Below, in pieces: positions 7,883-36,709 of a stretch of DNA of 64,000 nt. The DNA is from Nitrosarchaeum sp. (GTDB lineage Archaea > Thermoproteota > Nitrososphaeria > Nitrososphaerales > Nitrosopumilaceae). The stretch's first letter is position 1; the number at the start of each line of letters is the position of its first letter. The notes under the pieces were generated by a model. The model did no database searches and was not told the DNA's origin. It was given only the letters and a program-made list of their open reading frames with translations. The translations under genes and the position numbers were made by a program. Where the stretch lies: the NCBI RefSeq assembly GCF_025699065.1, contig NZ_JAILWF010000003.1, forward strand, positions 62,001-126,000. Reading direction: 5' to 3'.

Positions 7883-9424
7883 TCAGATAACTTTGATTGT
7901 AACATAAGTGGATACTGATACATCTGGAATTTGGGTTCCTAGTAAAATCTTGTAGCTTCCTTGGTGGGCATTTTCGTCAACAAAAATAGTTACAGGTATT
8001 TGCATTGCTTGTTCTGAAATGTGTGTCGGTTCTAATTTTGTATTAATTTTAATCAGTTCAGAATTTGAGTTTCCAAATAAAACTACGTTCATACTTTGGC
8101 TTGTTTGAGGTGTTACAGTCACCAAAATTTCTTGTTGTTCTCCTTGTTTGATGACAATCTCCCCTTTTTCTGTTTCAAGTGAGATTGGAATTTTCACTGA
8201 GGTATCTAAGACTCCGATATTGTTTTCTACCCATTCTGTAAACCATACTTGTTTATCTTTAAAGGTAAATCCAAAACTTTGGGATATCCCACAATCAGTT
8301 AGCTCTCCACAATCTGACCAAGTGGGATTCTTTGATGGGATGTCATATTCAATTAATGATTCAGAATTTGGATTAAACACTGCCAATCTATTTCCTGTCT
8401 GCTGATTAAACCACAAGTTACCTTCTGAATCAAATGCATTCCAATATGGGCGAGTAATTGGAGTTTTAATCAATCCTGAAGCATTACCATAAGTCAAAAT
8501 GGACGGCTTTGAAGTGGTATACTCTAACACTTTTTTAGTGTCTGGACTGAATTTGTAAAATGAACTTCCTGCAGTATCTGCAATCCAAATATTCCCTAAT
8601 GATCCAACAGAAACACCATTTGGTGCTTGAATTGAATCTGGAAGAGTATGCTGTTCCACTTCTTGTGTGATGGAATTTGTTTTAACAAGAATTACCTCTT
8701 TTTGATATTTCCACATTACAAACCAAATGTTTCCTTTATCATCAATAACTGCTTGACTTGTAAAGAATCCTTCAGGAATTGAAATAGTAGCGTTAGTAAA
8801 TTTACCTTCATCTAATTTTTCATGATTTAAGATAACAATTTGGCTTCCTGTAAAATCATTAATCACAAAATTGTCATTATACAGTCCAATTTTCTGTGGA
8901 AATGATTTTTTTGTTTTTGCGGGAATTTGGAACTTTGAATATTTTTCTTCAGAGATTGAAAATTTCCACAATGATTCGTTTTTTTCATCAGTAAACCAAA
9001 TTTCATTATCTTCTGTATATGCTATCCCCCACATCATTGATGCACTATTTAATGACCATTGATCATTGTGATACTCTGTAAATAATTTTGATTCAGGATC
9101 AAACTTTGCAACTTTACCAGTATTTGTCTGAGTAAACCAAATTTTGCCTTCAGCATCAGAAATTATAGAAAGAGGCTGAGAACAAGGCGTGGGAATTTCA
9201 AACTCTTTGATATATTGATTTGTTTTTGCATCTGAACTTCCGCAATGTTGCAACCTTTCATTAGGACTGTAATTGTCCGCAGGAGTTCCAGTTAATTCTG
9301 GCATCACATTTGTTTCTGTTGTTTGTGAAATAGCCTCTTCAGGTAATTCATTAAAAACAATAATGACAAATAGGGTAGCAATCAAAAAAACTGTTCCTGC
9401 TACAAAATATAGATACTTTTTCAC
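7883..9424 (-). CDS. Membrane-anchored six-bladed propeller, streptogramin-lyase/NHL-like
   Basis: 513 residues: an N-terminal membrane helix (YLYFVAGTVFLIATLFVIIVF), then repeated blades with the Vgb-type pattern ISDAEGKIWFTQTNTGKVAKFDP, GNIWFVMW, LGNIWIADTAGSSFYKFSPDT, EGNLWFNQQTGNRLAVFNPN and KQVWFTEWVENNIGVL. A C-terminal Ig-like beta domain of about 100 residues follows (GEIVIKQGEQQEILVTVTPQ). Related propellers include virginiamycin B lyase, but antibiotic cleavage is not implied in this setting. Start is GTG at 9424. The promoter carries copy A of the 18-bp box (9463-9480), oriented toward this gene, with TTATAACTA 10 nt downstream. Confidence 0.78.
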   Translation of the reverse strand: MKKYLYFVAGTVFLIATLFVIIVFNELPEEAISQTTETNVMPELTGTPADNYSPNERLQHCGSSDAKTNQYIKEFEIPTPCSQPLSIISDAEGKIWFTQTNTGKVAKFDPESKLFTEYHNDQWSLNSASMMWGIAYTEDNEIWFTDEKNESLWKFSISEEKYSKFQIPAKTKKSFPQKIGLYNDNFVINDFTGSQIVILNHEKLDEGKFTNATISIPEGFFTSQAVIDDKGNIWFVMWKYQKEVILVKTNSITQEVEQHTLPDSIQAPNGVSVGSLGNIWIADTAGSSFYKFSPDTKKVLEYTTSKPSILTYGNASGLIKTPITRPYWNAFDSEGNLWFNQQTGNRLAVFNPNSESLIEYDIPSKNPTWSDCGELTDCGISQSFGFTFKDKQVWFTEWVENNIGVLDTSVKIPISLETEKGEIVIKQGEQQEILVTVTPQTSQSMNVVLFGNSNSELIKINTKLEPTHISEQAMQIPVTIFVDENAHQGSYKILLGTQIPDVSVSTYVTIKVI

Positions 9425-9462: not shown

Positions 9463-9480
9463 TGTTTGATAGTTCTACCA
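9463..9480 (-). promoter_or_regulatory. 18-bp promoter box, copy A
   Basis: On the minus strand it reads TGGTAGAACTATCAAACA, identical over 18 bases to copies B and C. A TATA-like TTATAACTA starts 10 nt beyond it, in front of the propeller gene (start 9424). The first 14 bases form an imperfect inverted repeat, TGGTAG-AA-CTATCA. Confidence 0.75.
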
Positions 9481-9501
9481 ATTTTAGTTATCAAGAATCT
9501 G

Positions 9502-9714
9502 TTAATATCTAGCTAAACATTCTATATCTTGATTTTTTTGATTATTTGATCTAGATCTTAAACGAAGCTTTGTCTGACAACATGGACATCGTAAATCTTG
9601 TGAAATTATAAAAATCGAGCATTGAGTACATCTTTTTTGTCCATTTCCGTATCTAGAACTTCCATTCATATGTCTTGATTTAAAATGTGAGCATATTCCT
9701 TTACACAAATTCAT
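9502..9714 (-). CDS. Small zinc-ribbon protein (70 aa), paralogue of 14730-14939
   Basis: Begins MNLCKGICSHFKSRHMNGSS and carries CTQCSIFIISQDLRCPCC: CxxxC at the N-terminus plus two further Cys pairs, then a basic tail (KLRLRSRSNNQKNQ). The layout suggests a treble-clef or zinc-ribbon that binds nucleic acid or protein. The protein at 14730 has the same order of motifs (CKGIC, GQKHCSKCSIFI, IRCPCC). Box B of the shared promoter motif lies 43 nt upstream, with TTAATTAAT at the TATA position. The family is common in thaumarchaea but, to my knowledge, without a known role. Confidence 0.8.
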   Translation of the reverse strand: MNLCKGICSHFKSRHMNGSSRYGNGQKRCTQCSIFIISQDLRCPCCQTKLRLRSRSNNQKNQDIECLARY

Positions 9715-9756: not shown

Positions 9757-9774
9757 TGTTTGATAGTTCTACCA
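9757..9774 (-). promoter_or_regulatory. 18-bp promoter box, copy B
   Basis: Minus strand TGGTAGAACTATCAAACA, followed after 9-10 nt by TTAATTAAT; faces the zinc-ribbon gene starting at 9714. On the plus side it sits just upstream of TTTTTAGTA, the best TATA candidate of the divergent gene starting at 9809, so it could also affect the sensor/regulator pair. Confidence 0.75.
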
Positions 9775-9808
9775 ATCATTTTTAGTAGGTGAAAAATTAT
9801 CTAATATC

Positions 9809-10192
9809 GTGCAAAAAACTACTCTTAATAATAAACAAAAATTCAATATTCTTATTTTAATTACTGGCGTGCTTATGGCAATTAGCATACCTGTCTTTTT
9901 GCCTCATTTTCTTCATGGTCATGGAGTTCATACAGGGATTCACCTAGCCAGCATCTCACTTGGTTCTTTTCTTTCTGTTATAGGAGTGATGACATATCTA
10001 GAATACAAAACAAAAAGATTGTTGTTAGTGTTTTTTGCATTTGCAACTATAACAATAGCTGAAACATTATCTGCACTAAATATCATATTTTTGTTTTGGG
10101 CATCTTATTCAAGTATTGACTCTGTAATTACCCATTTGCTGATACTTATGATGTTGACCTTTTTTTCTATAGGGATTTTTAAGAGAGATTGA
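9809..10192 (+). CDS. His-rich four-helix membrane protein (candidate sensor)
   Basis: 127 residues with four predicted membrane helices. The loop between helices 1 and 2 contains five histidines (PHFLHGHGVHTGIH), which would face the membrane surface and could bind a metal ion. GTG start at 9809. It ends 1 nt before the winged-helix regulator gene (10194), so the two form an operon. Pairs of a small four-helix protein with a winged-helix protein are common in archaea. The sensor role is inferred from that pairing and the His cluster, not shown. Confidence 0.7.
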   Translation: MQKTTLNNKQKFNILILITGVLMAISIPVFLPHFLHGHGVHTGIHLASISLGSFLSVIGVMTYLEYKTKRLLLVFFAFATITIAETLSALNIIFLFWASYSSIDSVITHLLILMMLTFFSIGIFKRD

Positions 10193-10193
10193 T

Positions 10194-10700
10194 ATGATGA
10201 TAAAATCACTCAAAAGAAAAACTATTCTGCAAATAGTGGAATCAAATCCAGGCGTGGGGTTTGTCGATATTCAAAAACATACAGGTTATGCTAACGGAGT
10301 TCTTAGTCATCATTTGAAAAGATTGGAAAATGAAGGACACATTAGGATAAAGCATGGAAAACGTAAGATTTGGATATTTTCTTCTATTGTGAATACTGAT
10401 AATGATAATCTTCTAATTTTTTTTAGAAAAGAAACATGTCAAAAAATTCTGCTTTTTCTTTTAGATGTTAAAATTGCAACCTTTAGTCAAATACGTGATG
10501 CAGTTGAAAAAAGTCCTAGTACAACTTCAGTTACTATGAAAATGTTGCTTGGAGAAAAATTGATAAGAAAAATTTATGGATTTCCTTTAAAATATGAATT
10601 AGAAAATTACGAAAAAACTTTACAAGTAATTGAAACAATAAAACCATCTAATGTTGATGTACTAAAAGACAGATTTGCAGATACTTTCTCTTATTATTGA
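10194..10700 (+). CDS. Two-domain winged-helix transcription regulator
   Basis: 168 residues. Domain 1 (about 5-70) is a classic winged helix: VDIQKHTGYANGVLSHHLKRLENEGHIRIKHGKRKIW, of ArsR/MarR-like type. Domain 2 (about 80-150) repeats the fold: LLFLLDVKIATFSQIRDAVE then SPSTTSVTMKMLLGEKLIRKIYG. No obvious metal-binding Cys cluster is present, so any signal more likely comes through the membrane partner encoded immediately upstream. It is the best candidate to bind the 18-bp boxes, four of which lie within 2 kb of it. The link is inference from position and from the dyad symmetry of the box. Confidence 0.85.
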   Translation: MMIKSLKRKTILQIVESNPGVGFVDIQKHTGYANGVLSHHLKRLENEGHIRIKHGKRKIWIFSSIVNTDNDNLLIFFRKETCQKILLFLLDVKIATFSQIRDAVEKSPSTTSVTMKMLLGEKLIRKIYGFPLKYELENYEKTLQVIETIKPSNVDVLKDRFADTFSYY

Positions 10701-10718
10701 TTTTTTAATTCCAATTAA

Positions 10719-10736
10719 TGGTAGAACTATCAAACA
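10719..10736 (+). promoter_or_regulatory. 18-bp promoter box, copy C
   Basis: TGGTAGAACTATCAAACA on the plus strand, identical to copies A and B, followed after 8-9 nt by ATATAATTT and then by the gene starting at 10777. It lies in the 76-nt gap after the winged-helix gene. Confidence 0.75.
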
Positions 10737-10776
10737 ACAGAGACATATAATTTAGTGATCTAGTAGATTGCAAACA

Positions 10777-11061
10777 ATGTCTGATTTTATAAAAAACAAC
10801 AAAACTACAATTCAAGTGTTTATTCTGATAATATCGATAGGGTCTGGTCTGCTTGTTTATCTTACATGGTATGTGTCACCTGACGAGATTACTGAAAGAG
10901 TTAGAGTAATTGCAAATACTGAAAATGGATGTATCGTTGAAACCATGGATAACTTTGCAATAAACATTGGTTCATGTGATGCACAATCTGGAGAAACCAT
11001 AGTTGCTACATATGATGCAAAAATTAAAGAACGCGCACTACTGATGAATCCTACAGGTTAG
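10777..11061 (+). CDS. Small membrane-anchored protein with Cys pair, unknown
   Basis: 94 residues from the ATG at 10777 (a TTG three codons upstream is the alternative). One N-terminal helix (TTIQVFILIISIGSGLLVYLTW) is followed by a compact outward domain with RVIANTENGCIVETMDNFAINIGSCDAQSGETIVATYDAKI. Two cysteines flank a beta-rich core and may form a disulfide outside the cell. Small proteins of this pattern are, from memory, seen in other thaumarchaea, without known function. Promoter contains box C. Confidence 0.72.
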   Translation: MSDFIKNNKTTIQVFILIISIGSGLLVYLTWYVSPDEITERVRVIANTENGCIVETMDNFAINIGSCDAQSGETIVATYDAKIKERALLMNPTG

Positions 11062-11119
11062 TTACATATTCAACATGAAATGACGTTCCAAATGTTGTTT
11101 TTTATAAAATATAACATAC

Positions 11120-11137
11120 TAGTAGAACTGCCAAACA
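11120..11137 (+). promoter_or_regulatory. 18-bp promoter box, copy D
   Basis: TAGTAGAACTGCCAAACA, differing from copy C at positions 2, 11 and 12. TTATTAAAG begins 10 nt after it and the cupredoxin gene starts at 11178. The same TTATTAAAG element occurs after copy E. Confidence 0.75.
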
Positions 11138-11177
11138 AACTGTATCATTATTAAAGTCATCTTAGAGTTTTATCATA

Positions 11178-12206
11178 TTGACATCTATTACACGTTTGAG
11201 ATTTTTTGGATTTGTGATATTGAGTGTTTTTGTGTTTATTATTTTTGATGCAAATTCCATTTCTGATTCTTACGCTGAAGAGATCACAATTAACATTCCA
11301 TTTGGAGCATATAGTCCCGAATTAAATACGCCTGCTGAGGTGTGGTATGATCCCCCAGTTGTATCTGCTACAGTTGGAGATACAATTACTTGGATAAATA
11401 ACGATAAGGAAGGTCATACTGTTACAAGCGGACAAGGTTCTGGAAGATTTGGTTGGATGAACAATGATTTTGGAATTTCTGATGGTTTGTTTGACAGTGA
11501 TAGATTCATGCCAGGTGAATCTTGGTCATACAAATTTGAAGAGTCAGGTACTTTTTCTTATTATTGTACAATTCATCCGTGGATGGATGGCGTTATAACA
11601 ATTAAAGAATCTGTATTAGATTATCCTCATGATGCATTTGGAAATAAGATAGAGTCATTTCCAGTTATCAAATTCACCCCTGACAATATTATTGAGGTAG
11701 ATCTTACGTGGGAACCAAATGTTATCAAAACACATGAAAAAGTACAATTCATCTATCAATTTTATAGTCGTGCAACAAATGCAAATCTTGCCAAAATGCA
11801 GTATGACTTTGTTTTAATTCAAAATGGCAAAGAGATCTATCGCGATACTGGACTTACACAGATTGGCGGGGACTATCGAAATTTTGTATTTGATAATACT
11901 GGCTCAATTATAATACGATTTGAGGGAATAGAAGGTACCGCAGGCACGATTAGTGATAAAACCATTGATGTCACCACATCAAAAGCTGCAAGAACTACTG
12001 AATTTTCTACTATTGTTTATGAGAACCAAGAAAAAATGGATCATGAGCAAATGCAAATCAAACCTGCACAGCGTTTGGAACTTTATTATGGATTGTATCC
12101 GATAATCATTTTAGTTCCAGGTGTGCTTTTTATTATCGCATTATTTTGGATGAAAAAATCAAAAAAGAATTCATCCCAGAACACATCTAGTTCCACACCG
12201 ATTTAA
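11178..12206 (+). CDS. Membrane-anchored cupredoxin (type 1 copper) with Ig-like C-terminal domain
   Basis: 342 residues. A signal or anchor helix (FFGFVILSVFVFIIFDA) precedes a plastocyanin-like domain (about 35-145). The type 1 copper ligands are visible: His80 in GHTVTSG, Cys130, His133 and Met136 in YYCTIHPWMDG. A second domain (about 165-270; VDLTWEPN, YDFVLIQNGKEIYRDTG, NFVF, IIRFEGIEGT) matches the last domain of the protein at 12890-14620. A C-terminal helix (YPIIILVPGVLFIIALFWM) anchors it again. Probable extracytoplasmic electron carrier or copper-binding protein. Start TTG at 11178; box D in the promoter; next gene begins 1 nt after its stop. Confidence 0.88.
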   Translation: MTSITRLRFFGFVILSVFVFIIFDANSISDSYAEEITINIPFGAYSPELNTPAEVWYDPPVVSATVGDTITWINNDKEGHTVTSGQGSGRFGWMNNDFGISDGLFDSDRFMPGESWSYKFEESGTFSYYCTIHPWMDGVITIKESVLDYPHDAFGNKIESFPVIKFTPDNIIEVDLTWEPNVIKTHEKVQFIYQFYSRATNANLAKMQYDFVLIQNGKEIYRDTGLTQIGGDYRNFVFDNTGSIIIRFEGIEGTAGTISDKTIDVTTSKAARTTEFSTIVYENQEKMDHEQMQIKPAQRLELYYGLYPIIILVPGVLFIIALFWMKKSKKNSSQNTSSSTPI

Positions 12207-12207
12207 C

Positions 12208-12885
12208 ATGGATAGTACACAAGAACTAAAAATTGTACGATGGAGTATCATCATTACAATCGTCATTAGTGTAATGAGTTTAGTAATTCATGATTTGATA
12301 TATTTTCAGACACATGAGAGTACTCCTTTAGATACCGCATTTATAGAATCTGGATTTGGTAAAATTTCATTTTCTAATAAGGTTCAAAGCTATTCGATCT
12401 CAAATGATATTTATCAAGACTATGAATTGGGATTTCAAATTTTAAAACCAAATGATGCTTGGAAAGTAATACCAATGTCTGATAGCATGAATGATGAAAG
12501 TATGGAGATTCTAAAAACTAAAGGTTTCCTTGATGGGATCTATTTGGAGCAAAATAACGAAAAGCATTTCATGATTGCTGTTTTTGATGTTTCACAAAAA
12601 TCATCTTTTGAACTGGCAAATTATGTCGATACACAAATTGAAACTATGAAAAATATCGCCGATGTGGATATTCAAATCAGGCAAGTATCTCAATCTAATG
12701 ATTGGGCTATTTTTGGAGCACATGCTCACTCTGAAAATATAGATGAATATGGCGAACAGCTTTTGTATTTAGAAAATAATCGACTATACATGCTTCAATA
12801 CACTGGTCTGTCTCCATCAGAGATGAAGACAGAAATAAAATCAGAATATCGCTCAATACTTGATTCTTTTAAAATACTGGGATGA
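12208..12885 (+). CDS. Membrane-anchored protein, PsbP/LpqN-like fold possible
   Basis: 225 residues with one N-terminal helix (WSIIITIVISVMSLVIHDLI). The outward part has DYELGFQILKPNDAWKVIP, then KSSFELANYVDTQIETMKNIADVDIQI and NNRLYMLQYTGLSPSEMKTEIKSEYRSILDSFKIL. This order (lipocalin-like start, helix, strand, closing helix ending in SFKIL) resembles PsbP-type or LpqN-type domains, but that is only pattern similarity. It lies 1 nt after the cupredoxin gene and 4 nt before the next gene, so all three are one transcription unit driven by box D. Confidence 0.7.
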   Translation: MDSTQELKIVRWSIIITIVISVMSLVIHDLIYFQTHESTPLDTAFIESGFGKISFSNKVQSYSISNDIYQDYELGFQILKPNDAWKVIPMSDSMNDESMEILKTKGFLDGIYLEQNNEKHFMIAVFDVSQKSSFELANYVDTQIETMKNIADVDIQIRQVSQSNDWAIFGAHAHSENIDEYGEQLLYLENNRLYMLQYTGLSPSEMKTEIKSEYRSILDSFKILG

Positions 12886-12889
12886 TTGT

Positions 12890-14620
12890 ATGTCCAAATT
12901 AGTAATGAAACATGCCTATTTTGGGTTGATTATGATATTGGTTGTAATATCTAGTATACCATCTCAAAATGTTTCTGGACATGGATTAGGAGGCGAGACT
13001 CATCCTCCAGTAACACTTGATGGACGTGATGTGACTTTGTCAATTAACATTTCCCCATCTACATTTGATCTCAATGATTTGGAAAGATACATCACAATTA
13101 ATCTAAATGAATCAAAAAGTCAAGGAGTAGTAGAACACGTTACCCTTATGTTTGAATTAAAAAAAGATGGCGAAAGAATTTTCAGAAGAATGTTTCATGA
13201 TGACTTGGGCAATCTAACCATTAAAGTAATTAATGATGGTTCAGATGAAATAAAAATCAAGGGAGATTTATCACCTGCTCTTGAATCATGGATGAGAACT
13301 GCAACAGAGCCAGTAACAATGACAGGTTCAGTTTTTAATTCAGGTGGGTTATATGAATACAAAATAGAAATCTTAACTGCTGATTCGGATTTTAATTTTC
13401 TTGACAAGAGACTAGAATTGATAGGGGCAATCAGTCTTGCTGAACACAATACGTATACAGTAGTTGATTCTGAACAAGCATCTCATATAGTAAATATAAT
13501 TTCATATTTTGATAAAATTGAAAACTTTGAGTTTAATTCAAACAAAATTTCATTTTCAATGCCTTTTGATTGGAATCAAGATCTTGAACAGATAAGTGTA
13601 GTACATCAAGAAGTTAGAATTCCAGAGGGGTTTTCGGAATTTCTCCATACAAAATATGATGTTAAAATAAATAATATTGTGATAAAAGATGATGCTGTAA
13701 CTATAGATGATTATTCATCAGACGGTAGAACAGTTCACGTTGTGATGAATCAAGAAGATCTAAAACAAATCAAAGAACAAGCAAAACAAAAATCAGATTC
13801 AGACATGTATTTTGAATTGGGTTTAAGCAATGATGTTGTTTTACCTTTGGTAGCAACCACTCCTGACATTAGATATCAGGCGTATCTATCTTGGAAGCCA
13901 GAAATAATCAGAGCTGGGGAGGATATAACCTTCTTTTTAGAAACAAAAGAACTGTTTACAGACAAATCTACCAAGAACATAGAATATGAGGTAGACATGT
14001 CATCAAACGGCACTTCTATCTATCACGAACGTATTTTTGGTTCTGTAAATTCTGAAACTTTAGATAAATTTCAATTCAAATTTCTTCCTGAACACATTGG
14101 AACCGTTAAATTAGATATATCAGACATTGGGGGAAATTCTCTTTCAGATGTTAATTTTTTGTTAGTTGTGAAGCCTCAAGAAATTACAAAATTTCCAATT
14201 ACATTGGAAAGTAAATCAAATACTTTGGATGGACAATATTTAGTTGATCTTACATGGTTTCCAAACACATTAGGTCTTGGAGAATCAGAATTTGTTATGA
14301 CCTTTTATGAAAAAGACTCCAAACTGCCAGTAAGAGGTGCAACGTATGATTTTGTGTTACTCAAAGATGGTTCTGAAATATATCGCAAATCTGGTATCGC
14401 AAATGCAGGTGGCACATTTGAAAACTTTGTATTTGTGGAAAAAGAAACAGGAGATCTTACCATAAGAATTGAAAATATTGCTGGAACTGATGAATATGTT
14501 GAAATTCCAATTAATGTTACACCAGAATTTCCACTAGGAATTTCAATTATGTTTATGATAATAATTTCAATACTAATGATATCAACAAAATATGTTAAAA
14601 ATTTTCAATATAATGTATAA
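12890..14620 (+). CDS. Secreted multi-domain protein with PEF-type C-terminal sorting tail
   Basis: 576 residues from ATG 12890. A signal peptide is followed by HGLGGETHPPVTLDGRDVTL and several Ig-like modules. The module YLSWKPEIIRAGEDITFFLE is repeated as YLVDLTWFPNTLGLGESEFVM with YDFVLLKDGSEIYRKSG and NFVF, which also occurs in the cupredoxin two genes upstream. The end reads VTPEFPLGISIMFMIIISIL plus a short basic tail, a tripartite pattern like PEFG/PEF-CTERM signals processed by archaeosortases; an archaeosortase-like gene lies at 60477. Third gene of the box D operon. Likely a surface protein that works with the cupredoxin; the exact role is unknown. Confidence 0.8.
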   Translation: MSKLVMKHAYFGLIMILVVISSIPSQNVSGHGLGGETHPPVTLDGRDVTLSINISPSTFDLNDLERYITINLNESKSQGVVEHVTLMFELKKDGERIFRRMFHDDLGNLTIKVINDGSDEIKIKGDLSPALESWMRTATEPVTMTGSVFNSGGLYEYKIEILTADSDFNFLDKRLELIGAISLAEHNTYTVVDSEQASHIVNIISYFDKIENFEFNSNKISFSMPFDWNQDLEQISVVHQEVRIPEGFSEFLHTKYDVKINNIVIKDDAVTIDDYSSDGRTVHVVMNQEDLKQIKEQAKQKSDSDMYFELGLSNDVVLPLVATTPDIRYQAYLSWKPEIIRAGEDITFFLETKELFTDKSTKNIEYEVDMSSNGTSIYHERIFGSVNSETLDKFQFKFLPEHIGTVKLDISDIGGNSLSDVNFLLVVKPQEITKFPITLESKSNTLDGQYLVDLTWFPNTLGLGESEFVMTFYEKDSKLPVRGATYDFVLLKDGSEIYRKSGIANAGGTFENFVFVEKETGDLTIRIENIAGTDEYVEIPINVTPEFPLGISIMFMIIISILMISTKYVKNFQYNV

Positions 14621-14654
14621 ACAAACAACATTTACAATAGATGTTTTAGAAAAC

Positions 14655-14672
14655 TAGTAGAACTACCAAACA
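14655..14672 (+). promoter_or_regulatory. 18-bp promoter box, copy E
   Basis: TAGTAGAACTACCAAACA, with TTATTAAAG starting 9 nt after it, upstream of the second zinc-ribbon gene (14730). Its dyad TAGTAG-AA-CTACCA is near-perfect. Confidence 0.75.
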
Positions 14673-14729
14673 ATCTATTGATTATTAAAGTTTAGAATTT
14701 TTTGTTATGTGTGGTGGAATAATCTAAAA

Positions 14730-14939
14730 ATGAATATGTGCAAAGGAATCTGTGAGCAATTCAAAGCCAAAGACTTCAAGGGAAAAATTAGATATGAAAT
14801 AGGTCAGAAACACTGCTCAAAGTGTTCTATTTTCATACTTTATCCAGAAATAAGATGTCCTTGCTGTAATTGTGTTTTACGCATAACGCCTAGATCAAAC
14901 AGATGTAGAAAAGATTTTCAGGAAAGAAAAAACAACTAA
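14730..14939 (+). CDS. Small zinc-ribbon protein (69 aa), paralogue of 9502-9714
   Basis: Starts MNMCKGICEQFKAKDFKGKI and continues GQKHCSKCSIFI and PEIRCPCCNC, then a basic tail. Motif order and spacing match the 70-residue protein at 9502-9714, so these are two diverged copies inside one element. I start at the ATG at 14730 to match the paralogue; an in-frame ATG at 14709 would add seven residues without similarity. Both copies have the 18-bp box in their promoters, which suggests that they serve the same response. Confidence 0.8.
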   Translation: MNMCKGICEQFKAKDFKGKIRYEIGQKHCSKCSIFILYPEIRCPCCNCVLRITPRSNRCRKDFQERKNN

Positions 14940-15008: not shown

Positions 15009-15482
15009 TCATGGCATCATATTATTGCCCATCATATTTCCCATCATCGTTGAATTATTCATTCCCATCATGTTCATCATTTGTTGATTACTCATCATGT
15101 GGTTCACCATTCCTTGATTCTGCATCATCATGCCCATCATCTGATCTCTCATTGCAGGATCATTCATCATGTTATTCATCATTGGTTGCATCATGGTACT
15201 CATGTGCTGATTATTTCCCATCATCATGTTGTGCATCTGGGTCATAGATTGTGGGTCATTCATCATAGTACTCATCCATTGATTCATAGCATTTGGATCA
15301 TTCATCATGGTTTGATGCCATCGATTCATCATTGCAGGATCATTCATCATTTGTTGCATTTGCTGTGGGGTCATGTGCATATAGTTGAAAGTCGAGGTAT
15401 TTTGAGAAATACCATAACCAATTCCAATTCCTACTACTAACACACCAACAATAATCCCAATGATTACGTACTGACTTGTCAT
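15009..15482 (-). CDS. Membrane-anchored Met/Asn-rich low-complexity protein
   Basis: 157 residues with one N-terminal helix (YVIIGIIVGVLVVGIGIGYGI) and then an outward domain with about 45 methionines. The unit MMNDP occurs four times, mixed with MMGN, MMNN and single His residues. Methionine-rich segments outside the cell commonly bind Cu(I), and the neighbours are a cupredoxin operon and a CDF-like transporter. A copper-binding role is therefore a reasonable inference. The opposite strand shows long Ser- and His-rich open frames, which are shadows caused by the repeated CAT/ATG triplets. Confidence 0.75.
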   Translation of the reverse strand: MTSQYVIIGIIVGVLVVGIGIGYGISQNTSTFNYMHMTPQQMQQMMNDPAMMNRWHQTMMNDPNAMNQWMSTMMNDPQSMTQMHNMMMGNNQHMSTMMQPMMNNMMNDPAMRDQMMGMMMQNQGMVNHMMSNQQMMNMMGMNNSTMMGNMMGNNMMP

Positions 15483-18025: not shown

Positions 18026-19108
18026 ATGGTTCAAATAGTACTCAAGACTGATGATTTATACGTAGAAGAACCAATTTTATGGGATAACATATTTCCTTAT
18101 GGCACAATTCCGATATTTGTAGGAAAAAAGAGAAAACATGTGATGGATCTCTTGTCTGCACTGGAATTACGTGGTGCATCTACTACAAGTGAACTTGCAC
18201 GTTTTGCTATAGAATCGCACTATTCAAAAGGTCAGATAAAAGAAATGGGGAAGTCATTGCTGACAAGACGTGGACATTATTATCTAAATCATCTTAGTGG
18301 TCGTGAAAAAAAGAAAATTGGAAAAAAAACTGTTGGGATGTATGCTAATCTTTTAAAAACAAATTATGTAAAGTTAATAGATTCGTCAAAATCAAATATT
18401 GGCGTTTATTTCCCAACCTTATTGACACATTTAGTGTCATTAGGTTATGTGTATACTTATGATGAAACATGTGCATTTATTAAAAATGCTTCTCGTAATA
18501 GTCTTTATTTTGCATTTCTTTATGATATAATGAATAAGACATCTTTTGCATTTGTCAAGGAATTCTTTCTTGATCCAATTAAAAAAATGATTAAACAAAA
18601 TAGAATACGGTTTGATGATGACTTTAGATTAAACTTTGATATTATTGCAAGTGCTACTGCACTAAAGATTATGGAAATCATTCAAAGATCAGAGTGGTGG
18701 ATACGTTCAAAAGGAGATACAAATTTGAAAACAGGTGATTTAAAATTACTAAAAGAGCTAGATGTTCTTATACAAAATACTTGGTTTGATTTGCAGAATT
18801 CAAAATTATTATCAAAATGGGTAGGGTTGTATTATCCAACAGAAGAACAAAAGTGGTTTTATTCACAACATAGTGACTTCTCTGATGCACAATTGATTTA
18901 CAAAGTAATGAGAGAAATTCATGTTAACTATTATGGCAGTTATGGGCAAAAAATTCCAACTAAATATCAACAAAAATTTCCATTCCCAATTAAGCGTAAT
19001 CGAAAAAAGAAAACAAAATCTACAAACTCTGCATTTCATAATAGCATGATGGCAAAAAAGTTACGCGATTCTCAATATGGCTCTAAAAATTATGACTGGG
19101 AAACCTGA
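18026..19108 (+). CDS. Element protein of unknown function (360 aa)
   Basis: I do not recognise a family. The N-terminal 100 residues resemble a helix-turn-helix region (VMDLLSALELRGASTTSELARFAIESHYSKGQIKEMGKSLL), then a helical middle with many aromatic residues (YFAFLYDIMNKTSFAFVKEFFLDPIKKMIKQNRI) and a lysine/arginine-rich tail (PIKRNRKKKTKS) typical of nucleic acid contact. No ATPase or nuclease motif is visible. It is convergent with the integrase gene and their coding ends overlap by 19 nt. Candidate functions are replication initiation or recombination support. Confidence 0.7.
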   Translation: MVQIVLKTDDLYVEEPILWDNIFPYGTIPIFVGKKRKHVMDLLSALELRGASTTSELARFAIESHYSKGQIKEMGKSLLTRRGHYYLNHLSGREKKKIGKKTVGMYANLLKTNYVKLIDSSKSNIGVYFPTLLTHLVSLGYVYTYDETCAFIKNASRNSLYFAFLYDIMNKTSFAFVKEFFLDPIKKMIKQNRIRFDDDFRLNFDIIASATALKIMEIIQRSEWWIRSKGDTNLKTGDLKLLKELDVLIQNTWFDLQNSKLLSKWVGLYYPTEEQKWFYSQHSDFSDAQLIYKVMREIHVNYYGSYGQKIPTKYQQKFPFPIKRNRKKKTKSTNSAFHNSMMAKKLRDSQYGSKNYDWET

Positions 19109-20271
19109 TTAGGCTTTTTCTTTAACCTGTTTATTTTCTCAATTCGTGCCTGCATTTTGATTATTTCTGTCTTCATCCAGTCCATTTCACTCTCTACTTG
19201 CTCTTTATCCAGTTTAGCTTGTTCTAATTCTGATTTTTCCTTTTCTATCTTTAGTTTCTCTACTCTTATTTTTTCAGTGTCATCTATTGTCAAATCCAAA
19301 ATTGCCTTTGAAAATTGCTCAAAACATTCTTCTAATGTTGGTTGCAGATATGCTCCATCTAATCCTCTTCTATGTGCCATTAGTTTTTCTGCGATGTTAG
19401 AGTTTACTTCATTGTTCATTTTGAGTTTCCCGTTGAATCTTTTTCTAAACATACGCATTGTTGCTTTGTCATATGTTGCGCCTTTTTTTGTTCGTTCAAT
19501 TCCTGCGTTTCTGATTGCTTTTTCTACCACTTTACGCAATCCCATCTCATCCATATGATCATTAGTTTTATTTTTGTAAAAATTTGCAAATATTGGAGTT
19601 TCATCACTGAATTCTTCTTTTCGCATCTCTTTTCTCCAAGAAAAATAATTGTTTAATGCTCTTGTTGCCTCTGGCGTTAAAAATGACCAGTATCCCTCCT
19701 TTGACTCGTCATAGATTTTAATTGCCATACATCCATGTGGCATATTCTTTAGATGCTTCATTCTTAGAATCGGGTCTGAAATTCCTGCAGGTCTTGCACC
19801 CGTACTTGCCATAAAGTGAATTATTGCTTTGTCCCTTGTGTGTTTTGCAGAGTCTATCATTCTTTTTACTTCATCATCAGTTACTGGTTTGTTTCCTGCT
19901 AATTCTTGTTCTTCTTTTTTGATTGTTCTTCTTACTAGTTTTCTGTGCCAGAATTTTCTATTCATGTCAAAAAACAATTCTGGTGATGCAAGCATTGTGC
20001 TAATACCTGATGTCTTTATTGTTTCATTTAGATTCATTACATATGCTTGCAGTAAATCTGTAATTTTTTCTTGATCAAAACCTACTACTATTTTGTATTC
20101 TTCATTATTTTCAATTTCTTTTCTTTCTACTAAAAAATCCATGAATCTTTTCATGTTGTATGCATATGTGGAACGAGTGGAGTCTGTCTTCATTCCTGCA
20201 AAGAATTTCTGATACTCTATACTCTTCTTTGATTGCTCCTTTGCATGGATTATCCACTTCTCCCGTAGCAT
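19090..20271 (-). CDS. int: Tyrosine recombinase (integrase) of the element
   Basis: 393 residues. An N-terminal core-binding domain (about 15-115; STRSTYAYNMKRFMDFLVER) precedes the catalytic domain. Catalytic residues: Arg160 in ASTGARPAGI, Lys191 in DESKEGYW, the RxxR form of the second box (Arg273 and Arg276 in RMFRKRF), His300 in MAHRRG, and nucleophile Tyr308 in DGAYLQ. The second box usually begins with His; Arg here is a known type of variation. The last 70 residues form a coiled coil (EKLKIEKEKSELEQAKLDKEQVE), a pattern seen in several archaeal integrases. It starts 45 bp inside the right repeat, consistent with it acting on those sites. Confidence 0.93.
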   Translation of the reverse strand: MLREKWIIHAKEQSKKSIEYQKFFAGMKTDSTRSTYAYNMKRFMDFLVERKEIENNEEYKIVVGFDQEKITDLLQAYVMNLNETIKTSGISTMLASPELFFDMNRKFWHRKLVRRTIKKEEQELAGNKPVTDDEVKRMIDSAKHTRDKAIIHFMASTGARPAGISDPILRMKHLKNMPHGCMAIKIYDESKEGYWSFLTPEATRALNNYFSWRKEMRKEEFSDETPIFANFYKNKTNDHMDEMGLRKVVEKAIRNAGIERTKKGATYDKATMRMFRKRFNGKLKMNNEVNSNIAEKLMAHRRGLDGAYLQPTLEECFEQFSKAILDLTIDDTEKIRVEKLKIEKEKSELEQAKLDKEQVESEMDWMKTEIIKMQARIEKINRLKKKPNQVSQS

Positions 20272-34252: not shown

Positions 34253-36709
34253 TCATTTCTTTCTTTTCTTAATGTAAATTGTAGTTGCTATGCCAATTAT
34301 TATGGGGATAAGTAACCATGCAAATTCAAATGAATTGTTTTGATTATATTCTATGTTGTTCTGATTAAGATCTGATAATTCTCCGTTGTTTTCAACTATT
34401 AAGAAACTAGATGAATAGTAATCTGGTTTTAGAACTGAATTTGAAATTGCAAATATCTTTAAATCTTTAGCACCAATTCCTAATTCTTTAATTTTTTCAG
34501 CATCGATTATAATTTTAGTGGAATTATTATCTATGTTAATTAATTCTGATATTGAATTATTACTACTATCAGTCAAAAAATAAAGAATGGAGTCGGCTTT
34601 TTTTGTATCTATGTCAATCTCTAATCGTGTCTCTTTTTGAATCATGTCTGGTAAATTTACGTTTGTTATTTTTGGGAATTCTGTTTTTTCAAATTCTGAC
34701 CAATGTCCAAGCTTGAAAGGATAAGTCTGATCATCAAAAGCATTTACGACTATTGTTCGTGATTCAGGTGAGTATGAACTGAGATAAAATGGTCCATTGC
34801 TAATCACTGCATGATTGTATGATTTGACCCACTCTGACGATGCCATATATCTCTCATCGAAATATTTGATGTCTTTTTCAAATATTTTTAATGAATTTGG
34901 AATATACTTCTTTTCACTAAATTCATTCAAATAACTTTGTACCATTTGAGCGTCATTAGGAATTATCAACGAAATCCAATTTACATTTTTATTAATTGCT
35001 CCAGATCTTGAAAATGAAACTTTTCCGTCTAACACTGCTTGTTCCATGGCTGCTGAAATTTCCCATGGCATTGAACTCCACAATGAGGCCCATTCTGCAA
35101 TTTCATCATTATCAAAATGCCAGTAATTTACATACACCTCAATTGTATCGTCATCAATCACTTCTATTCCAATAATTGTTTTTACAGATTGTGATGCAAT
35201 AGATGTGAATTCTACATCATAAGTCTTATCGTTTTCATCTGTTTGAACTCCCCACTCCATTACAAAATACAATGAATACAAAATATCATTCATATCCATT
35301 TTTTGGCCGTTGTGCCAATTACTAAACTTCAAATCATATCTAACTTTGCTTGTTGCTTGAGTTCCATGTTCTACTTTCTTCCATTGGTGTGTGATGGGGT
35401 CCCACATAATTGCATCATCAGATAAAATTATTTTTCCGTTGGGTCCAGCAGTCTCTACATTCCAATCTGCTCTGACTGGAAATGTTTTTCCAGTAAATGG
35501 ATGCTTAAACGTAATTGGATCTGAAATTATACCCCAAATCTGTCTACTATATGTATCACTTAATCCCATAACTGGATTCCAGGAACCTTGATAGATCTGT
35601 TTCACTCCGATAACTAATTCGCTTTCTCCATTTCTTGAATTAATCGGTGTAAATCTACTTGGAACACCGGCTCCTAAATCATTTACGATTCCTTCCATTT
35701 TTTCATTTGCTACAAACTGATCAATTTTACTTGCTATGAAAATTCTAACTGATTGGTCTACTCCTTCTGCAATTGCATCTTGAATCAATCTGACTCTTTC
35801 TTCTTCAGATTCAAAATCTCCGGTGTATATTTTCTGAGTTATTTCATCGAGTTTATCATTTTTGTAATTCCAATATGATGGATCGTTTGAACCCGGCATG
35901 TTTGAGAACCATGGAGAATACATCTGCGATAATCCCACTGAATCGTATCTTACGAATGCTGATCTTGACCAGCCTTCTGTGTATAGACTCCATTTTAGCT
36001 CTGCTGGATTGGAACCGTATACAACAACATATGCTTTATTCAAATCCCCGTAGTCTTTTTTTACTGTGAATCCTATTTTTTCTAATTCAGAAGCCAATAT
36101 TTCCCCGATAGACTTTCTTACCTGATCATCACTTCTTATGAAAATTGTAATCTCTATTGGTTTTTGATTAATTTCCCATCGTCCGTTTGATTTTATTGCA
36201 CCCTTTTCTTTTAGTGCATTTGAAATCATTTCTTCAGCTAGTGCTGGATTGTATCTGAAATTGAATGTCTCTAATTGTTTAATTATTGTAAGGTATTCTG
36301 GGTCAGACGGACTATAGTTTGAGATCATTGGTGCACCATAACCTCCCATCAATTCGTTTACAATCAATTTTCTATCTATTAGATAGTTTAATGCAAATCT
36401 GATATCTTTAAGCGAAAATGGATTGAATTCATTTGATTCTGCAGGATTTACCAATATACTATAGGATCTCCCTGTTGAATCAAAAACCTCTAATCTTTCA
36501 CGTAATTTGGGATTTTCTAGTCTGTCTGATGAAATTCTGTCATAGTATATATCCAAATTTCCATTTCTAACTTCTTCAAGTGCAGTATTTTCATCCAAAT
36601 ACTGGATAAATTTTACAGAATCAAAATATGTGCTTTTTTCTGCAAATGATTCATTATTGATTACATATACTATTGCAAGAGCTAGTATGAATACTAGCAA
36701 TAATTTCAT
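34253..36709 (-). CDS. Oligopeptide-type ABC substrate-binding protein, membrane-anchored
   Basis: 818 residues, family 5 solute-binding protein (DppA/OppA-like). Signal peptide (LLLVFILALAIVYVI), then DIRFALNYLIDRKLIVNELMGG and a second lobe with DLKFSNWHNGQKMDMNDILYSLYFV. A C-terminal helix (FEFAWLLIPIIIGIATTIYIKKRKK) anchors it. It is larger than usual (500-600) because of a C-terminal beta domain of about 110 residues. No permease or ATPase gene is adjacent, so the transporter must be elsewhere, or the protein works without one. Confidence 0.88.
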   Translation of the reverse strand: MKLLLVFILALAIVYVINNESFAEKSTYFDSVKFIQYLDENTALEEVRNGNLDIYYDRISSDRLENPKLRERLEVFDSTGRSYSILVNPAESNEFNPFSLKDIRFALNYLIDRKLIVNELMGGYGAPMISNYSPSDPEYLTIIKQLETFNFRYNPALAEEMISNALKEKGAIKSNGRWEINQKPIEITIFIRSDDQVRKSIGEILASELEKIGFTVKKDYGDLNKAYVVVYGSNPAELKWSLYTEGWSRSAFVRYDSVGLSQMYSPWFSNMPGSNDPSYWNYKNDKLDEITQKIYTGDFESEEERVRLIQDAIAEGVDQSVRIFIASKIDQFVANEKMEGIVNDLGAGVPSRFTPINSRNGESELVIGVKQIYQGSWNPVMGLSDTYSRQIWGIISDPITFKHPFTGKTFPVRADWNVETAGPNGKIILSDDAIMWDPITHQWKKVEHGTQATSKVRYDLKFSNWHNGQKMDMNDILYSLYFVMEWGVQTDENDKTYDVEFTSIASQSVKTIIGIEVIDDDTIEVYVNYWHFDNDEIAEWASLWSSMPWEISAAMEQAVLDGKVSFSRSGAINKNVNWISLIIPNDAQMVQSYLNEFSEKKYIPNSLKIFEKDIKYFDERYMASSEWVKSYNHAVISNGPFYLSSYSPESRTIVVNAFDDQTYPFKLGHWSEFEKTEFPKITNVNLPDMIQKETRLEIDIDTKKADSILYFLTDSSNNSISELINIDNNSTKIIIDAEKIKELGIGAKDLKIFAISNSVLKPDYYSSSFLIVENNGELSDLNQNNIEYNQNNSFEFAWLLIPIIIGIATTIYIKKRKK

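Follow-up and report, generated by a model that had tools for sequence, protein, structure and literature searches.

A candidate copper-linked pair of a membrane protein and a double winged-helix regulator in AOA, with an 18-bp box upstream

We describe two adjacent genes, retained together in several groups of ammonia-oxidising archaea (AOA), that encode a four-helix membrane protein and a double winged-helix DNA-binding protein, and an 18-bp box that precedes both the pair and a handful of its neighbours. We propose, with about even confidence, that the pair is a self-controlled, kinase-free, copper-linked sensor-regulator module of AOA that tunes copper-related cell-surface proteins. The window, by which we mean the whole 64,000-nucleotide stretch of Nitrosarchaeum sp. 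DNA analysed here, belongs to a 1.6-Mb genome of the AOA family that holds Nitrosarchaeum and Nitrosopumilus.

Results

Organization of the locus

According to the ORF calls, the two genes lie on the same strand and are separated by a single base (Table 1). The sequence TTTGATAGTTCTACCAA, with up to three mismatches allowed, occurs six times in the window, where 0.56 occurrences would be expected, and none of 100 shuffles reached six; a profile scan of the 64 kb also gave six sites, at 16.5 bits or more; the profile was built without six of 29 upstream regions that had no clear site. Five of the profile sites are intergenic (Table 1), and the sixth, at 35302, falls within an 818-aa ORF and was therefore set aside. 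Both the arrangement described in the earlier note (two genes 1 nt apart amid boxes) and the 18-bp box at the pair are thus confirmed. The boxes end 32-44 nt upstream of the annotated starts of the pair and of the genes for a cupredoxin, a Vgb-type propeller, two Cys-rich proteins and a 97-aa membrane protein; at five of these promoters the box is reversed and the TATA-like sequence is further off. An own box was also sought before the 586-aa exported protein, and none was seen.

Table 1. Features of the pair, its boxes and its neighbourhood in the window
Feature	Position	Strand	Remarks
Four-helix membrane protein, proposed sensor	9809..10192	+	127 aa; GTG start; His loop 32-45; conserved H45, E85, H109
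Double winged-helix DNA-binding protein, proposed regulator	10194..10700	+	168 aa; conserved C-terminal tail KDRFADTFSY
Box TTTGATAGTTCTACCAAT	9759..9776	+	32 nt 5' of the pair; 44 nt 5' of the divergent 70-aa gene
Box identical to that at 9759	9465..9482	+	40 nt 5' of the - strand propeller gene
Box TTTGATAGTTCTACCATT	10717..10734	-	precedes the 97-aa gene
Box TTTGGCAGTTCTACTAGT	11118..11135	-	precedes the cupredoxin gene
Box TTTGGTAGTTCTACTAGT	14653..14670	-	precedes the second Cys-rich gene
Vgb-type beta-propeller, predicted target	7883..9424	-	513 aa; resembles the propeller portion of CopC-CopD-Vgb in N. viennensis
Cys-rich protein, predicted target	9502..9714	-	70 aa
Single-helix membrane protein, predicted target	10768..11061	+	97 aa; recurrent neighbour with its own box
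Plastocyanin/azurin-type cupredoxin, predicted target	11178..12206	+	342 aa
Exported protein	12860..14620	+	586 aa; N. viennensis homologue (25%, E 1e-35) near the homologous pair
Cys-rich paralogue of 9502-9714, predicted target	14709..14939	+	76 aa

The two Cys-rich paralogues, each behind a box, are 54% identical over 57 aa, match no Pfam family and are possible metal-binding proteins; the true start of the second is probably the Met at residue 8. A Met-rich membrane-anchored protein with MMN repeats lies close to the cluster at 15009-15482(-), and a similar one adjoins the regulator gene in locus L042. Further away, an ORF at 19090-20271(-) resembles a tyrosine recombinase on inspection by eye and has small winged-helix-like ORFs next to it; this region is possibly an integrated element.

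Conservation of the pair

When an alignment of the membrane protein was the only query, 180 of the 275 genomes of the order had a match. AmoA, the marker of ammonia oxidation, was found in 200 of the 275, with groups f1, f10, f11 and f13 among the matches listed; the membrane-protein matches are strong in these four groups and weaker in the other groups listed, the best of the latter being 1.2e-13 in one f14 genome. The pair is ancient, and it is not present in all AOA. Around the best membrane-protein matches, within a flank of 1.5 kb, the regulator adjoins the membrane gene in 29 of 30 loci, and only L146 has no regulator within this reach. The two genes run in the same direction in 26 of the 30, with a gap of -23 to +3 nt in 25 of these and a called gap of -116 nt, due to an upstream start codon, in the other one; they lie on opposite strands in three. 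The set anchored on the regulator contained both genes in 28 of the 30 fetched loci (L032-L061), and the best matches in six genomes of other AOA groups or families were in tandem with the regulator in every case. Both protein trees, one of which was rooted at the midpoint, split off the same 19 rows of the Nitrosopumilaceae branch (support 99 and 97), and the pairwise distances of the two proteins correlate with r 0.86, much of which would be yielded by common descent alone. The window genome carries a second pair (G000:C4), which belongs to the other branch and lies nearer to its CopC/D.

In L068 (11-806) and L085 (11100-11983) there is also a second, smaller pair, in which a winged-helix gene is followed by the gene for a membrane protein of 98-100 aa, weakly related to ours and without the His residues; it suggests that a wider class of such pairs exists. 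A plasmid search with the 98-aa relative returned no match.

The membrane protein

The AlphaFold2 model of the membrane protein (pLDDT 84, pTM 0.80) consists of four long helices, residues 8-35, 39-66, 69-93 and 103-125. The five-His loop to which the earlier note drew attention is present, as the peptide PHFLHGHGVHTGIH of residues 32-45 (His 33, 36, 38, 41 and 45), but it is not constant: among 45 non-redundant relatives, His occupies position 33 in 29, position 36 in 28, position 38 in 21 and position 41 in 36, and the loop is largely lost in the sub-branch with the membrane gene and the regulator on opposite strands. As only H45 is invariant (45/45), we rejected the loop as a metal site defining the whole family; judged from the alignment, it is an accessory that varies between members, and conservation is seen at H45, Glu85 (41/45) and His109 (42/45). 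By the positive-inside rule, which would place the basic turn YKTKR between helices 2 and 3 and the C-terminal FKRD inside, both ends of the protein should be inside and the loop with H33, H36, H38 and H41 outside. With this topology, and going by the limits of the modelled helices, H45, E85 and H109 are predicted to sit in helices 2, 3 and 4, all about 6-8 residues beneath the outer surface, and could together make up a single metal site.

No convincing solved fold for the membrane protein came out of Foldseek, VIA-align or PDB sequence searches, and Pfam and NCBIfam assigned no family. The profile of the membrane sensor domain MASE3 matched the N. viennensis homologue alone, and weakly (E 0.015; 15.4 bits, with the cut-off at 31). 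Because the protein matches no solved fold, its proposed receptor role is argued from its anatomy.

The regulator

The model of the regulator (pLDDT 83.5) contains two winged-helix units, at about residues 6-63 and 68-136. Pfam hits above the cut-off (HTH_34, HTH_5, HTH_24 and HTH_HVO_0163_N) concern winged helices, and Pfam revealed no other domain, which agrees with the earlier description of a pure DNA-binding protein with two winged helices. A kinase or receiver domain was sought by Pfam in both proteins of the pair and found in neither. The model aligns to CadC, CzrA and SmtB, and each half scores Z of about 11 against the ArsR/SmtB and MarR fold. Across 55 non-redundant relatives neither a Cys nor a His is invariant (nine of them have Cys at position 82), so we rejected the idea of an ArsR-type metal sensor, the conserved ligands being absent. 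Since the protein has neither an invariant Cys or His nor a ligand-binding domain, its input should come from elsewhere. Through its conserved C-terminal tail it may touch the membrane partner or the transcription machinery.

In one sub-branch the regulator bears an additional N-terminal winged-helix-like part and reaches about 242-260 aa in total (L071 1792-2520, L046 1198-1980, L070 7740-8477); by eye this part resembles a separate 88-aa gene. The membrane gene is convergent in this sub-branch, and its His loop is degraded. L070 is on a contig labelled as a Planctomycetota MAG that bears the AOA genes of this cluster, so the label is probably a binning error.

The box across relatives

De novo motif search recovered the box, in the form TTTgAtanTTgTACCAat and just 5' of TATA, before 23 of 29 non-redundant membrane genes. 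The ungapped search of these 29 upstream regions returned gTTTgAtanTTgTACCAa with an LLR of 206, compared to 57-63 in four shuffled sets, a control that overstates the significance because the input sequences are related by descent. In these 23 regions the site is mostly 48-61 nt before the conserved protein core; it lies further upstream in members from Nitrososphaeraceae and f13, where the called proteins have longer N termini. CCA is at the same place in all 23 sites and is followed at a fixed distance by TTA or TTTA in 16. Family-wide, the palindromy of the box is weak, at 6.6 of 18 against 5.1 (sd 0.5), and within the range of the shuffles. The motif search missed the box before L081, L048, L056, L050, L090 and L069. 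In L081 and L048 it is present in the opposite orientation, and three others (L050, L056, L090) belong to genus g19, where the gap between the membrane gene and the regulator is wider and Q/D replace E85/H109 (as seen in rows L050, L090 and L059, the last of which is almost identical to L056).

Near-exact copies of the box (at most one mismatch) amount to 27 sites in 18 of the 250 genomes of the family, and 19 of them are within 1.5 kb of the pair. Of the others, three (L117, L118, L121) stand 34-41 nt before recurrent types of exported or membrane proteins, four are inside ORFs or at an ORF 5' end, and one has no nearby ORF. In genus g17, a near-exact box precedes the pair of the other branch, whose regulator is only about 31% identical, which ties the box to the family and not to one locus; the form of the box differs between sub-branches of the regulator. 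In the window genome near-exact copies are rare genome-wide, as counted by pattern searches. Ten of the 30 own-genome sites were inspected outside the three pair-adjacent boxes (L005, L006, L016, L020, L021, L023, L024, L026, L030, L031): eight overlap ORFs, L016 is the box at 14653, and L023 has no ORF nearby.

Boxes also occur in other settings. In L079 (7657-7743; L065 8514-8600 is the same genome) four stand in a row with a 23-bp period, TTTGAAGGTTATACTAAT three times and then TTTGACAGTCATACCAAT, before a separate 88-aa winged-helix gene, and L077 has two at the same spacing. Exported proteins that start with AHK..Y..EVGW and match no Pfam family are repeatedly found behind boxes (L085 10114-10641, L117 1558-2178, L118 250-1200).

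The link to copper

We take genome G332 to be N. viennensis, as its gene order matches the description of NVIE_014280-014310 in PMC7785015. Its locus L162 comprises the regulator (10934-11452(-)) and the membrane protein (11454-11861(-)), 1 nt apart, with a box at 11898(-); beyond the pair are two proteins with CopC and CopD, the longer of which has a Vgb propeller and two boxes upstream. The two window proteins are each 27% identical to this pair (E 5e-21 and 8e-14). According to the accessible text of Reyes et al. 2020 (PMC7785015), genes of N. viennensis induced by copper limitation have the motif TTCSGSMTTTGWACYANT 35-70 nt upstream; it occurs twice before copC/D_b and also before NVIE_014290, with which the "ArsR" gene NVIE_014280 is presumably co-transcribed. 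A profile built from Nitrosopumilaceae only (18 of the 23 sites) scores TTCSGSMTTTGWACYANT at 11.8, compared to -18.2 (sd 6.3) in 3000 column permutations, one of which scored as high; the window boxes are a divergent form and not exact matches to the published consensus. Thirty genomes, selected for having the membrane protein and few contigs, were compared by hand: in 21 a large CopD-bearing ORF lies no further than about 8 kb from a membrane gene of this family, and in the other nine none lies so near.

Copper is likely, by analogy, to be the signal of the window's own pair, and we do not put it more firmly, since this pair sits in a branch restricted to Nitrosopumilaceae and the copper data concern the N. 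viennensis homologue. The window pair may instead have a related role, e.g. the control of blue copper proteins.

The pair had been called possibly new in the earlier note, which has to be qualified: the motif, its link to copper limitation and the N. viennensis operon were published in 2020 (PMC7785015). The pairing, its breadth and the sensor-regulator assignment appear to be new: in the accessible literature that our search returned, the two genes are nowhere presented as a conserved sensor-regulator pair, and the box is not described for marine-type AOA.

Discussion

Functional model and alternatives

In the mechanism that we propose, the double winged-helix protein would bind the 18-bp box just 5' of the TATA of its own operon, as well as the boxes at about five neighbouring promoters. 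The four-helix protein would provide the input, probably reading outside copper or a copper-dependent state through H45, E85 and H109, which in many members the His-rich outer loop would feed. This state would be passed to the regulator by direct contact at the inner face, via the conserved basic turn between helices 2 and 3 and the C-terminal end, so that copper shortage would switch the box promoters on. We slightly favour activation over loss of repression, because the forward box stands at a fixed distance from TATA. The kinase-free receptor-regulator reading in the earlier note is supported in part: the genes are paired in 29 of 30 loci, the regulator is purely DNA-binding, kinase and receiver domains are missing, and the box travels with the pair and its neighbours. 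The direct hand-over from membrane protein to regulator, like the binding of the box and the sensing role, is something that we infer.

It is tempting to go further and to regard the pair as the founder of an AOA-wide class of kinase-free copper-shortage sensors. Here an unclassified four-helix receptor, bearing its His/Glu/His site within the membrane, would exert direct control over a soluble double winged-helix activator, and in Nitrosopumilaceae a duplication would have given two modules, each with its own set of targets. This broader proposal is tentative, and we think it somewhat more probably wrong than right.

A different reading makes the membrane protein a target, i.e. a small carrier of copper or another cation, and leaves the regulator to cytoplasmic copper or some other input. 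NVIE_014290 is indeed named a putative cation channel in the accessible part of PMC12448741, the outer His-rich loop and the membrane-embedded His and Glu residues would suit transport too, and the membrane gene is opposite in strand to the regulator in one sub-branch. However, the two genes are retained one to one even where they are not co-transcribed, their trees run in parallel, the regulator itself lacks a conserved metal ligand by which it could sense, and a transporter fold was searched for and not found, so that we regard a carrier as unlikely. We think it still less probable that another factor reads the box and the regulator is merely one more box-controlled gene. Such a factor could be the pair NVIE_030040/030060, put forward as a possible CopRS two-component system for copC/D in the accessible text of PMC7785015, where the control of the cop genes is treated as an open question, and self-control of our pair is deduced from the position of the box; the concentration of near-exact boxes at the pair and the variation of their form with the regulator sub-branch argue against it. 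The least probable of these alternatives, and to us a rather improbable one, is that the box is not an operator but a promoter element, an extended BRE recognized by one of the numerous TFB paralogues that these archaea have. The CCA-ending half-site at its fixed distance from TTA/TTTA, beside TATA, would fit such an element, and the available part of PMC12448741 reports TFB changes in AOA biofilms; yet 18 bp exceeds the length of a BRE, the box is reversed and further from the TATA-like sequence at five window promoters, and near-exact copies are scarce in the genome.

Relation to known systems

A literature search on the haloarchaeal family DUF7521 returned no papers. CsmR of Haloferax was set aside as a relative because it is Lrp/AsnC-like, according to the accessible part of PMC13286277. 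The closest counterpart of the sensor-regulator module proposed here is the NVIE_014290-NVIE_014280 operon: it has the gene order and the 1-nt gap in common with the window pair, its proteins are homologous, and a box of matching form precedes its first gene. The N. viennensis pair adjoins CopC/D genes, whereas the window pair, in its Nitrosopumilaceae-only branch, has a cupredoxin and a separate propeller as neighbours; in the accessible text of PMC7785015 the regulator is termed "ArsR" and neither a pair nor a sensor is described. With the ArsR/SmtB and MarR proteins the window regulator has in common the winged-helix fold of each half and an HTH_5 match above the cut-off, but it carries two winged helices per chain and lacks a conserved Cys/His metal site. 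As in CopRS-type two-component systems, there is a membrane part, a DNA-binding part and copper-linked targets, but the window pair has no Pfam kinase or receiver domain. ToxR and CadC are membrane-bound one-component regulators that relay a signal through the membrane to DNA and need no phosphorylation for it. The window pair would resemble them in this respect, with the difference that its membrane and DNA-binding parts are separate chains encoded by two ORFs.

AOA rely on copper enzymes and are the dominant nitrifiers over much of the ocean and soil. Our analysis names a likely regulator of their copper genes, its DNA site, a probable membrane input and three candidate residues. An archaeal membrane receptor that controls a separate transcription factor without kinase chemistry would be an unusual signalling design. 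If the pair does found an AOA-wide class of copper-shortage sensors, the regulation of copC/D and related genes would be explained, a question that is left open in the accessible text of Reyes et al. (PMC7785015).
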